Below, piece after piece: positions 11,712-17,055 of a stretch of DNA of 32,068 nt. The notes beneath the pieces were generated by a model that ran no database searches, was not told the DNA's origin, and saw only the letters and a list, made by a program, of their open reading frames with translations. Numbering within the stretch: the stretch's first letter is position 1; each line of letters begins with the position of its first letter. Origin of the DNA: Chitinophagales bacterium (GTDB taxonomy: Bacteria > Bacteroidota > Bacteroidia > Chitinophagales > Chitinophagaceae); assembly GCA_026931325.1 (NCBI GenBank), contig JAIXLO010000035.1, positions 1 to 32,068 on the forward strand. The letters run 5' to 3'. The translations under genes and the position numbers were made by a program.

Positions 11712-14700
11712 TTGAAGCGTTTATATTATATATGGGTAGTTATTTTTATGTTACTTAGTTCAGTAACTTATGCTCAGTTTAAAACTTCTTCTAATAAAAT
11801 CAATAAAAAAATTATTGTAAGAGATTCTGTTCAATTTGAAAAAAGAAGAATTGTACCTAATACCTTTTTTGTAAAAAATGTTGATACTTCCTTTTATTAT
11901 TTTAATTATCATACAAATACTTTAGTTTGGTTAAAGTCAATAAAATTTGATAGTGTAGAAATAGGCTATCGTTTTTTTAATTTCAATTTTAATACAAATG
12001 CAAAACGTTTTAACTACGATAGTATAAAAGATAATTTTATAGCAAAGCCAATAAACATAAAACATCAAACAGACGTTGGTGGAATATTTGGTGCAAATAA
12101 TGATATGCACTATAATGGGAGTTTTGGAAGAAGTTTAAGTTTTGGAAATAACCAAAGTGCTGTATTTAACTCTCAGCTTAATTTACAAATTAATGGAATG
12201 CTTGGCGATAGTATTGAAGTAGCAGCAGCTATTACAGATAATAATATTCCTATTCAGCCAGATGGTACAACACAACAATTAAATGAGTTTGATAGAATTT
12301 TACTTCAATTTAAAAAAAGAAATTGGCAAATAGATTTAGGAGATATTGATTTAAGAACTAATCAAAATTATTTTTTAAATTTTTATAAGAGATTGCAAGG
12401 CATATCTTATCAAAAAAAAAGTTTGAATGACAAACATAAATTGACTTTATCTGGTGCTATTGCAAAAGGAAAATTTGCAAGAAATATTTTTCAAGGGTTA
12501 GAAGGAAATCAAGGACCATACAGACTTAGGGGAAACAACAACGAATTTTTCTTAATTATTCTTGCTAATACTGAAAGAGTTTTTATTGATGGAGAAATGA
12601 TGCAACGTGGCGAAGACCAAGATTATATTATAAACTACAATACAGCCGAAATAACATTTACACCAAAAAGAATGATTACTAAAGATGCTCGTATTCAAGT
12701 AGAGTTTGAATATGCTGATAGAAATTATTTAAACTATATGTTGTTTGCATCTGATGAAATTAATTTAAATAAAAAATTGAAAATAAATATTGCAGCATAT
12801 AATAATACTGATGCAAAGAACTCTCCTATTAATCAGCAATTATCTGTAGAGCAAAAACAGTTTTTAGCAGACATTGGTGATAGTATCCAAAACGCTTTTT
12901 ATCCTTCAGCAATTATTGATAGTTTTTCAGTTACTAAAATCTTATATGCAAAAAGAGTAAACCCTGTAAATCCTTTATGGGATAGTATTTACGTTTATTC
13001 AACTAATCCTGATAGTGCAAAATACTTTTTAAATTTTGTAGATGTTGGTGTAAACAAAGGAAATTATATACCCCTTTTTAATGGTGCAAATGGAAAAGTG
13101 TATCAATACATTGCTCCTGTAAATGGAATATTACAAGGAAATTTTGAGCCTGCTATTTTTTTAGTTACACCAAAAAATCAACAAGTAGTTACATTAAGTG
13201 CAGTATATAACATTGATAGTAAAACAATTTTAACAACTGATATTGCACTAAGCAATTACGACAATAATACTTTTTCATCTAAACATAAAACAGATAATGC
13301 TGGTTTGGCTGGTAAATTTCTTTTACAAAAAATGGGAAGGTTAAATAAAAATAATCAATGGAATTCTTCTATTGGTTATGAGTGGGTAGATGAAAAGTTT
13401 AGACCTGTTGAAAGGCTTAGAACTGTTGAGTTTGCAAGAGATTGGGGTTTGCCAATTTTATTAAATTATGCTACTGAACATTTGCCTCAAGCATCTTTTG
13501 AAATTAAGAATAACAGCAACAATAACATTGTTCGTTATAACATTAATGGTTATTTAAGAAATGATGGATTTAATGCAATAAGAAATCAATTAATGCTGAA
13601 GAACTATTTGAAAGATGGAACGAATATACAATTTGATGGAAGTCGTACAGATAATAACACCAACAACGACAAAGGAAATTTTACTAAACTAAATATTGAG
13701 TTGAATAAAACTTTTAAAGCATTAAAAAACTATCAAACTGGTATTACGTACACTTTAGAAAGAAATATTCAAAGAAATAATTCTTTAGATACACTAACGC
13801 CATTGAGTTTTTCATTTGAAAATATTGGAGCATTTATTAAGAGCAATATTAATAACCCAAATCGTTGGACATTTCAATTTGTTACAAGAAAAGATGAATT
13901 GCCTTTTAAAAAAGAAATATTACAAACAGATAGGAGCTATAATTACCATTTAACTCTTGAGCTATTAAAAAATCAGCATCATAAATTTAAGTTTAATGTT
14001 AGTTATAGAGAGTTGATTGTAAAAAATAATTTTCTTACAAACCTTCAATCTGATAAAACTTTATTAGGTAGAGCAGAATATTTTATTAATGAATGGGATG
14101 GTTTTATTACTGGTACAACTTTATATGAAATTGGTACAGGGCAAGAACAAAAAAGAGATTTCTCTTATTTAGAAGTGCCTGCTGGTAGAGGTGAATATGC
14201 TTGGATTGATTATAATGGTGATGGTATTCCTCAACTAAATGAATTTGAAATTGCACTTTATCCTGATCAAGCAAAATATATTCGTATTTACACACCAACA
14301 AATGAATTTATTAAAGCAGCATATTTACAATTTAATTATACTATTAATATTCATCCAAAGGCATTATCTAATAACAATAATTCTAACCTTTGGAAAAATG
14401 TTATTTCAAAATTTATTTTACAATCATCTTTACAAATCAATAAAAAAACAATAGCTGCTACAACTCCTTTGCTCAATCCTTTTAAAGATAATATTGCAGA
14501 TACATCATTAATTAGCTTACAACAAAATACTATAAACACTATATCATTCAATCGTTTTAGTAGTAAATGGGGTGCAGATATTTCTAACATAAATTATACA
14601 GCAAAAGCATTACTAACTTATGGGTTTGAAAGCAGACAAAGAAATGAATGGATTTTAAGAACAAGAATAAATTTTAAAAGGCTTTATACTTTTGAGTTAG

Positions 14701-15164: not shown

Positions 15165-15167
15165 AAA

Positions 15168-15196
15168 TAAAAAAGGTCTGATTGTTCATCAGACCT
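15168..15196 (-). terminator. Intrinsic terminator of the minus-strand ncRNA
   Basis: AGGTCTGAT (15174-15182) and ATCAGACCT (15188-15196) form a 9-bp perfect stem with a 5-nt loop. On the minus strand the stem ends in a run of Ts (15173-15169 are all A on plus). On the plus strand no T run follows, so the orientation is minus. Confidence 0.85.
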
Positions 15197-15503
15197 GGTT
15201 GAGATTAAACCTGGTCTTTAGGGATTCTAGGAATTTTGGACTCATTGGTTTTTTCTTTTTAGAATATTGGTTTTCTTTTCTTGTAATTTAGGCTACAAGT
15301 ACCTTAGTTTTTCATTCATTGCATATTCAAAAACGGGTTTAGTCTTTCACTGGATTTTTGGATTGACTTAGTCTTTTTAATACACAGGGTTCTTTGTTTT
15401 GTTTTCTTAGGTATCAGATTTTGTTGTTGTTTTCGGATATTACTACTACTTAGTTTTTCTTGGATATTTGATTCAAAACGGGGCAACCCTTTGTATCAAA
15501 TTG
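15168..15503 (-). ncRNA. Candidate ~335-nt non-coding RNA of unknown family
   Basis: The minus strand has a complete transcription unit without a convincing ORF. A -33 TTG and a TATGTTTG -7 box (15510-15537) predict a start near 15503. The first 35 nt fold into a strong stem-loop: TTTGAT with ATCAAA, then CAAA with TTTG, then GGG with CCC (15467-15500). The body is A-rich and contains eight CTAA motifs. Near the 3' end an imperfect hairpin (CCAGG with CCAGG flanks around GGTT/AACC, about 15195-15215) precedes a perfect terminator (15174-15196). No tmRNA, RNase P or SRP signature is seen. The neighbours are the convergent beta-barrel gene and the divergent PspC gene. It could instead be a long leader, but nothing on the minus strand follows the terminator. 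Confidence 0.65.
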
Positions 15504-15509
15504 ACAGTA

Positions 15510-15540
15510 CAAACATACTAACATGTTATTCCCACAACAA
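15510..15540 (-). promoter_or_regulatory. Bacteroidota promoter of the candidate ncRNA
   Basis: On the minus strand TTG (complement of 15535-15537) is followed after 17 nt by TATGTTTG (complement of 15510-15517). This matches the TTG-N17-20-TAnnTTTG layout of Bacteroidota primary promoters. It is one of the best matches in the window. Confidence 0.7.
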
Positions 15541-15747
15541 GAGCAAAACTTCTCTTTTTTAGATATTCATTTTTCTGCAATTAAATAGTGAAATTGATAT
15601 TTTTCATATCGTAGAAACACTATTGAAAAATAGTAAATAGACCTTATTGTAGTAGTTTTAATTAAAAGGCAATTCGTTTAACTCTGTTTATAATATTTAA
15701 AAATAAAAAAGTATTTATCAGTTTATTATAATAGTAGTTGTATGGGT

Positions 15748-15804: not shown

Positions 15805-16026
15805 ATGAATAGGTTGAGAGCTTTTTTAGAAATACAAGCATTTGGAGTTTGTTCTACCATTGGAGAAAAATTAGGAGTTGCAAGCTCACGAATAAGAATG
15901 TGGTTTATTTATATTTCGTTTTTAACTATGGGATCTCCTTTAATTATTTATATGATTTTAGCTTTTTGGTTAAATTTAAAAAACTATATCTATAGTGCTA
16001 AACGAAATCCATTGAAATATTTATAA
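15805..16026 (+). CDS. PspC domain membrane protein
   Basis: The 73-residue protein has the PspC layout: an amphipathic start with GVCSTIGEKLGVASSRIRMWFIYISFL, then one long hydrophobic segment (about residues 33-58), then a short basic tail. PspC-type proteins are inner-membrane proteins linked to envelope-stress responses. In Bacteroidota, small stand-alone versions are common and poorly understood. No other psp genes are nearby. The next gene, an AraC regulator, starts 57 bp downstream but has its own promoter-like box, so linkage is uncertain. Confidence 0.8.
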   Translation: MNRLRAFLEIQAFGVCSTIGEKLGVASSRIRMWFIYISFLTMGSPLIIYMILAFWLNLKNYIYSAKRNPLKYL

Positions 16027-16083: not shown

Positions 16084-17055
16084 TTGCAAACATTTGAATA
16101 TACACATACTAACTTTGAAGAACTTCTAAAATATTTTGCTAAAAACTTTAATTCAAAAGTTAAAGGAAATAAAATTATCATTCCAGAAGATAAAGGAAAT
16201 GGTTATATCAAGTATATCAGTTTGGCAAATAGCTTACAAGTTTTAATTTCTAATTACACGCTTAAGCAAGATACTTTATTTCAAAGAAAGAAAACTCAAG
16301 ATGCTTTTTTTATTTTAAGATTTGAAGATATATCAATTGAAGATACTTCAAAAAACAATGAAGACGACCAATCAAAAAGTATTGCAGTATTAACAAGTAC
16401 AAAATTTGATTGGATGTTTTATGCTAAAGAAAATACACCTGTAAGAACAATCAATATACTTTTAAGTAAACAGTGGTTAGATAATTTTTTAGATACTGAA
16501 AAAAGAACTGAATATATAAAAAAATATCTCAGTCTTAAAATCTCTTCATTCAATTATGAGTCATTAGATTCAGAGTACAAACGTATTATGAACGAAATGA
16601 TGCAATGTAATGATGATACCCCTTTTGAGCATTTGGCTATTGCTAATAGAGCAATGCTTTTATTTGAAAGATTTTTTACACGTATTTATAATAAAATAAA
16701 TAACGAAACACATCAAGTAAAAGTTTCTGAGGACGATTTTCAAAGATTAGTAATTGTAGAAGCAGAATTGGTAAAAGATTTCTCAGAACCTGCTCCAGGA
16801 ATTCCCAAGCTTGCAAGAATGGCTGCTATGAGTTCTTCAAAATTAAAAATGATTTTTAGAGATATTTATGGATTACCAATCTATCAATATTATCAAAAGC
16901 ATAGAATGAATAAAGCTAAAGCTATGCTCCTATCTCAAAAATATACAGTAAGAGAAGTTGGGGAAAGTATAGGTTATAGCAACTTAAGTAATTTTGCAAA
17001 AGCATTTAAAAAATCTTTTGATCAATTACCAAGTGATTTATTGCACATGGATTAA
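16084..17055 (+). CDS. AraC family transcriptional regulator
   Basis: The 323-residue protein has the two-helix-turn-helix AraC DNA-binding domain at its C-terminus (about residues 235-320). The first HTH lies around KLARMAAMSSSKLKMIFRDIYG, and the second around YTVREVGESIGYSNLSNFAKAFKKSF, the family signature. The N-terminal ~200 residues form an unrecognised sensing domain with no transmembrane segment, so the effector is unknown. Translation appears to start at TTG 16084. No in-frame ATG is available near this point, and the sequence from here (MQTFEYTHTNFEELL) reads as a natural N-terminus. It converges with hutI with only 2 bp between the stops. Confidence 0.9.
   Translation: MQTFEYTHTNFEELLKYFAKNFNSKVKGNKIIIPEDKGNGYIKYISLANSLQVLISNYTLKQDTLFQRKKTQDAFFILRFEDISIEDTSKNNEDDQSKSIAVLTSTKFDWMFYAKENTPVRTINILLSKQWLDNFLDTEKRTEYIKKYLSLKISSFNYESLDSEYKRIMNEMMQCNDDTPFEHLAIANRAMLLFERFFTRIYNKINNETHQVKVSEDDFQRLVIVEAELVKDFSEPAPGIPKLARMAAMSSSKLKMIFRDIYGLPIYQYYQKHRMNKAKAMLLSQKYTVREVGESIGYSNLSNFAKAFKKSFDQLPSDLLHMD

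Follow-up and report, generated by a model that had tools for sequence, protein, structure and literature searches.

A noncoding RNA gene of Chitinophagaceae with tandem sites for a multicopy, FopS-like small RNA: a candidate multi-site sponge

The locus and its RNA gene

The window analysed here is a whole 32,068-nt stretch of contig JAIXLO010000035.1 from a Chitinophagaceae genome (assembly GCA_026931325.1; G000 below). As read from the sequence, its minus strand contains a noncoding RNA gene, from ∼15503 to 15167, equipped with a promoter and a terminator of its own. The RNA (15167–15503, ∼335 nt), a candidate multi-site sponge, matches our model R1 at 15167–15502 and aligns with homologues; its start at ∼15503 is deduced from the promoter position. 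Divergent from it on the plus strand is a 73-codon PspC-domain gene (15805–16026), after which comes an AraC-type regulator (16084–17055).

The promoter is of the Bacteroidota type, with TTG at 15540–15538, a 20-nt spacer and the −7 box TATGTTTG at 15517–15510 (minus strand), a box that is conserved in the homologue alignment. The original prediction had recognized a promoter of this kind with N17 spacing, which uses the next TTG; the −33 TTG (15538–15540) contained in the conserved upstream element GTTTTGCTCTTG (15538–15549, minus strand) is the better conserved one, which gives N20. Promoter and upstream 12-mer are conserved within the genus and also lie 5′ of similar RNAs in other genera. 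At the far end, the textbook terminator that had been proposed is indeed found, as an intrinsic hairpin (15174–15196, minus strand) with a U-tract reaching ∼15167; it is conserved in the genus, and one of its pairs shows changes on both sides in the consensus fold. Promoter, terminator and homologues together bear out the predicted transcription unit, and a recount of the A-rich body returned the same eight CTAA motifs.

A coding gene was rejected: only short frames occur in the RNA stretch, as the original prediction had held, the longest on the RNA's strand being a 56-codon TTG frame, and the homologue alignment is rich in indels. Also as predicted, the RNA belongs to no family that Rfam recognizes at threshold (6S, tmRNA, RNase P, SRP or any other), and ARAGORN together with the Rfam covariance models gave no tmRNA or other known-RNA match. 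The 6S model RF00013 found nothing in 39 relatives and was also silent in the Bacteroides control, hence its power is low; a 6S substitute was set aside after this search.

Distribution of the long RNA

The gene is conserved beyond this strain. BLASTN and a sequence model retrieve it from 8 of 10 genomes of the genus, five of which have two loci, the window's own genome included (contigs C5 and C140); the same searches did not find it in G004 and G005. Four contigs of G002 (C1, C17, C57, and C63) start or stop inside the RNA, as expected for two near-identical copies. Another genome, G009, has a second sponge-like stretch (L017, C65:32424–32463) ∼9 kb from the first, which shares TATCCGAAAACAACAACAA with the window RNA.

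The promoter pattern, allowing up to three mismatches, occurs in 65 of 394 Chitinophagaceae genomes and 37 of 101 genera, with 87 sites among the matches listed as compared to 11 for a backward control (both summed by hand). Among the promoter and motif loci listed, part of which were inspected by eye, promoter sites are often followed by A-rich DNA in which AUCCAAUAUCC and GAAAAACCAA recur ahead of a terminator. Rfam returned nothing at threshold in the 20 sources of related RNAs that were scanned. Sponge-type RNAs from several other genera (L066, L073, L101–L105, and L112) share a conserved 3′ domain, AAAUUUGUACCUAUUGAUGGCC...GUUGGUAAGGU..CGUACAAA, upstream of the terminator, which has no Rfam match in those loci scanned.

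Weak BLASTN matches outside the genus were of several kinds. By eye, L009 and L033 appear protein-coding and L011 and L029 are the small RNA (sRNA) gene described below in its opposite-strand reading, and these four were rejected; so was L030, which is the locus of L046, with a pairing z of only −1.5. L028 looks, again by eye, like a relative of the long RNA.

A probable partner family of small RNAs

When named genomes were scanned with one version of the repeated motif, at least 119 stretches bearing it were returned; few sponges were found there, and at many of the loci the reverse strand reads as a short gene. This sRNA gene (∼60 nt) has a TAnnTTTG-like box, a UUGGUUUUUCAUAGGAUAUUGGAUU seed, a few A and U residues, a hairpin, and a U-tract, and at several loci such genes are in tandem. 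In an alignment of 42 copies, chosen from 70 of which the rest were clipped short or not sRNA-like, seven of the nine hairpin pairs change on both sides, and the covariation score was reached by none of 500 shuffles. The 5′ end is unpaired as read from the alignment, whereas the RNAalifold structure places a weak 4-pair helix there. Both the sRNA alignment A3 and the covariance model R2 were built from exact-pattern loci, and seed invariance within A3 is by construction.

No Rfam family at threshold covers the sRNA. Covariance-model searches find it in all 10 genus genomes and in 260 of 374 Chitinophagaceae genomes, which represent 74 of 101 genera; a single genome carries as many as 14 copies. 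A class-wide search of 315 genomes, 8 of them Chitinophagaceae and 307 not as judged from the order of the 26 rows listed, gave matches in six, all of them Chitinophagaceae.

The window's genome has two copies, A and B, plus a weak third, C (L272, C153:13157–13214), which has an altered seed, UCGUUUUCAUAGGGUACGGAUU, and is also present in G006, G007, and G008. The two genomes in which the long RNA was not found, G004 and G005, have one diverged sRNA copy each. At the position where A carries AGGAUAUUGG, B carries AGAAUAUUGG. Upstream of B (L267 and other loci of the genus) is TGCAAC-N17-CGTC in six of the seven copies read, with CATC in the seventh, a form that we take to be typical of ECF sigma factors; many other sRNA copies have TAnnTTTG-like boxes instead.

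The sRNA is reminiscent of the FopS/GibS sRNAs of Bacteroides (Rfam RF04319). Like these it is multicopy, has a single-stranded 5′ seed followed by a terminator, the architecture described for FopS (PMC11697453), and may share their 5′ seed region: GUUUUUCAU, UAUU, and GAUU are common to both 5′ ends, in that order, and the score of the 5′-end alignment was reached by 2 of 5000 shuffles for A and 1 of 5000 for B. The FopS model gives the sRNA 19.7 bits against a gathering cut-off of 56, and at that cut-off retrieves nothing in the 10 genus genomes. With a permissive cut-off, all 16 A and B copies (orthologues, and not independent) are among 93 matches in the 10 genomes, and they are not the top matches (in G000 they rank sixth and seventh of 10); of 14 control genomes, 8 give matches too, one of them above the cut-off. 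In one small Rfam search of the sRNA, FopS (E-value 0.34) was outranked by ar15 (0.029).

Predicted pairing sites on the long RNA

Six sites for the sRNA are predicted along the minus strand of the window RNA, with energies of −17.9 to −22.3 kcal/mol for pairing with the genome's own sRNA A, plus one weaker site. From the 5′ end they are site 1 (15451–15481, −22.3 kcal/mol), the weak site (15425–15443, −11.8 kcal/mol), site 2 (15387–15423, −17.9 kcal/mol), which overlaps the 3′ arm of the closing helix described below by a few bases, site 3 (15340–15365, −21.8 kcal/mol), site 4 (CCGUUUUUGAAUAUGCAAUGAAUGAAAAACUA, 15305–15336, −20.9 kcal/mol), site 5 (15246–15276, −19.0 kcal/mol with A and −19.9 with B), and site 6 (15212–15244, −18.2 kcal/mol). 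Most of the CTAA motifs, which in many homologues are CCAA, lie at the end of or inside these ∼30-nt sites, and CUAA can pair with the sRNA 5′ UUGG through a G–U pair. Three RNAs were checked for internal pairing, and in these the bases of the sites are paired less than other bases. A stretch at 15421–15431 of the minus strand, AACAACAACAA, is conserved in most genus copies and is unexplained by sRNA pairing; it is perhaps a protein site.

The array stands out from its surroundings. Among 7118 overlapping 45-nt windows covering both strands of the 32 kb, the best seven for sRNA A all lie in the RNA; for sRNA B the five best lie outside it (minus strand 13790–13843 and 2765–2827), and the RNA comes sixth. 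The best four of 756 window tiles lie over the RNA. With the consensus seed, site energies add up to −155, a sum over seven sites of which one falls in the terminator, as compared to −37 ± 19 in dinucleotide shuffles, which account for the A/U bias by which an A-rich RNA and a U-rich seed raise the pairing baseline. All 11 genus RNAs deviate in the same way (z of −4.3 to −7.7), and for each of them none of 80 shuffled seeds reaches the observed value.

We also turned to 60 loci of other genera selected by promoter without regard to pairing, from which genus members, exact duplicates, and stretches below 250 nt had been removed. Summed site energies reach z < −2 in 41 of the 60 (19 fail), and in none of 36 upstream controls, the other loci being too short upstream; several of the loci are closely related.

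Part of this agreement is built in. The sRNA search pattern was drawn from the repeated motif, and up to 18 complementary bases of the core are partly by construction, while the exact search pattern is itself absent from the window. Construction does not explain why the sRNA gene has a promoter-like box and a terminator on the correct strand, its copy number and spread, why complementarity extends along most of the 5′ part, how many sites there are, the result for the promoter loci, which were chosen independently, or the B-type site. The last of these is in site 5, whose CCAAUAUUCU is exactly complementary to the AGAAUAUUGG of sRNA B. The correspondence is imperfect: sRNA B is also present in G001, G003, and G009, whose site 5 is AUAUCC (A-type), and sponge and sRNA covary incompletely, with a B-type site not strictly tied to sRNA B.

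Predicted structure: a long-range helix around the 5′ domain

The 336-nt strand folds better than its shuffles (z −3.11). Its main structural feature is a closing helix between 15506–15484 and 15392–15370 of the minus strand, favoured by the minimum free energy (MFE) fold, the consensus fold of 11 homologues, and an arm test. The 5′ arm, UGUCAAUUUGAUACAAAGGGUUG (15484–15506), is found by all three, and the true start of the RNA may fall slightly inside it, which would put its first bases upstream of the transcript; the 3′ arm, GAACCCUGUGUAUUAAAAAGACU (15370–15392), is found by the consensus fold and the arm test. In the consensus fold the 5′ UUUGAUAC pairs with a conserved GUAUUAAA ∼110 nt downstream. 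One compensatory pair occurs in the helix, in homologue L008, and its inward extension differs between homologues: AGGGUU/AACCCU in the window, CGGUU/AACCG in L006, and CGGUUC/GAACCG in L008.

For the window RNA the arm test gives −21.1 kcal/mol, and none of 100 shuffles is as good; for 10 of the 11 genus RNAs at most 5 of 100 shuffles are. Among the promoter-selected loci of other genera, the test is passed by 29 of 41 with sponge character as compared to 4 of 15 without, with 4 of the 60 (z between −2 and −1.5) placed in neither group. Arms there are of other sequence, e.g. GAAGUUGAUUGAU with AUCAGUCAACUUC in L106.

The original prediction had placed a strong local stem-loop (15467–15500) at the 5′ end. 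MFE, consensus fold, and arm test instead favour the long-range helix, and the local hairpin is, as the folds model it, secondary to the helix that closes the 5′ domain. For the second hairpin, proposed at about 15195–15215, the consensus fold offers only a rough counterpart, a small helix immediately 5′ of the terminator (alignment columns 315–338).

Function: a probable sponge, and its rivals

Taken as sequence evidence, these features make the window RNA, in our view, probably a trans-acting multi-site sponge, or decoy, for the multicopy FopS-like sRNAs. Seed complementarity is above chance, and the partner sRNA is encoded in the same genome (A, B, and the weak C). FopS sRNAs bind beside the start codons of susC-type mRNAs in Bacteroides and block translation (PMC11697453), and UUUUUCAU is the complement of AUGAAAAA; the sites may therefore be read as mimics of translation starts.

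The proposed mechanism would begin with a housekeeping-type promoter yielding an RNA of ∼335 nt, its 5′ end held in the long-range helix and its 3′ end in the terminator. Between these ends would lie about six ∼30-nt sites able to pair with the 5′ part of sRNAs A/B, every one of them resembling a translation start (AUCCAAUAUCC-n-AUGAAAAAC) that is presumed to be the target. A single sponge molecule could then capture several sRNAs, or expose them to cleavage, perhaps by RNase III, and repression would be lifted. We infer that the gene is transcribed, that pairing takes place in the cell, and that the sRNAs are titrated or degraded. By analogy with FopS, the sRNAs themselves would repress translation of outer-membrane or other mRNAs. 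Searches for such targets gave no signal: near-perfect matches across the 10 genus genomes numbered 3 outside sRNA genes as compared to 5 for the control, and pairing at 393 ORF starts showed no excess (energies of −18 or below in 7, as compared to 6 internal and 4 shuffled), the best of the 393 being the antisense of an sRNA gene.

The original prediction had suggested a protein-sequestering or a multi-target antisense RNA. Its reading of the repeated motifs as multiple binding sites is retained here, while the ∼30-nt pairing sites in the sequence favour a small RNA over a protein as the probable partner. A sponge for a protein or for Rho, considered for the C-rich, G-poor motifs, was set aside once the reverse-complement element was seen to resemble an sRNA gene. 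The protein explanation holds that single-stranded AUCC/ACCAA motifs titrate an RNA-binding protein, e.g. one with an RRM, as CsrB does CsrA. RRM_1 proteins are encoded by every one of the 10 genus genomes and by 34 of 39 genomes searched, RbpB, an RRM protein of Bacteroides, binds sRNAs at single-stranded stretches (PMC11697453), and a conserved AAC-repeat stretch is left unexplained by sRNA pairing. Such proteins are, however, also found in G004 and G005, which are without the RNA, and the ∼30-nt sites track the order of the sRNA over most of its 5′ part, beyond what short motifs would need; we regard this explanation as unlikely.

Distinctly less probable is a reversal or sharing of roles, in which the long RNA would regulate mRNAs or serve as a scaffold and the short sRNAs would be its antagonists (anti-sponges). 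Complementarity is symmetric, and the sRNA occurs in many more genomes, and in more copies, than the long RNA as detected; but it is the short RNA that has the architecture of, and resembles, FopS, a known mRNA repressor (PMC11697453), and many repeated sites per molecule suit a decoy better. We give very little credence to a base-pairing sRNA that acts directly on many mRNAs and is unconnected to the short sRNA: an A-rich, largely free strand, trans-encoded with its own promoter, would suit it, but it would not account for the six sites complementary to an sRNA family that the same genomes encode. Least credible of all is an artefact, i.e. a conserved intergenic repeat or decaying mobile sequence, as might be suggested by the two dispersed copies in several genomes, since conservation extends to the promoter, the closing helix, and the terminator alike and site energies are retained in all 11 genus copies.

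Returning to the sponge reading, on balance we favour its extension to a system of RNA-on-RNA control across the Chitinophagaceae, in which FopS-like sRNAs would be countered by long RNAs made of tandem mimics of start-codon targets and closed by a 5′ helix, with at least one sRNA copy under an ECF-type-looking promoter. Two RNA families found here without an Rfam entry would then form one circuit across this family of bacteria, for which our literature search found no such RNA work. It would suggest that FopS-type control, known from gut Bacteroides, reaches the Chitinophagaceae, and that an RNA antagonist supplements or replaces an RRM protein there. Site swaps and interactome sequencing could test the predictions that follow from the sponge reading.

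Comparison with known systems

Several known systems share parts of this design. Animal miRNA sponges such as the circular ciRS-7 likewise carry tandem sites for one small-RNA seed; they are eukaryotic, circular, and Argonaute-dependent. Closer are the bacterial sRNA sponges (chb–ChiX, SroC–GcvB, 3′ETS-leuZ, RbsZ, and AgvB), in which an RNA pairs with an sRNA and relieves repression, and which are generally described with one or two sites. Several of these are pieces of other transcripts, whereas the window gene strings together about six predicted sites for a single sRNA family, and similarly designed RNAs are found in several genera of the Chitinophagaceae. Having its own promoter is a trait that it shares with some bacterial sponge RNAs (PMC8383071).

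In the number of its sites the window RNA is more like CsrB/RsmZ, where many repeated sites in one RNA (∼18 in CsrB; PMC8383071) sequester a regulator. There the partner is a protein that recognizes GGA in hairpin loops or single strands, whereas here it would be an sRNA, with sites of ∼30 nt; by eye, the window RNA has no GGA at all, and it has no Rfam match at threshold. FopS/GibS offers the parallel for the sRNA side, with the differences that our sRNA falls well short of the RF04319 cut-off, belongs to another bacterial family, and would be countered by an RNA, while the antagonist reported in Bacteroides is the RRM protein RbpB, which counters FopS sRNAs there; the word 'sponge' is absent from the main text of that report (PMC11697453).

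Our literature search recognized nothing on the long RNA or its partner sRNA, and found no precedent for a bacterial multi-site small-RNA sponge gene. Sponges and FopS are themselves already known; what is new, as far as the literature searched extends, is a single gene with about six tandem sites, kept together with its sRNA across a genus and accompanied by like RNAs in other genera. Judged by its sequence features, the window RNA is best explained as working like an sRNA sponge with a CsrB-like multiplicity of sites.
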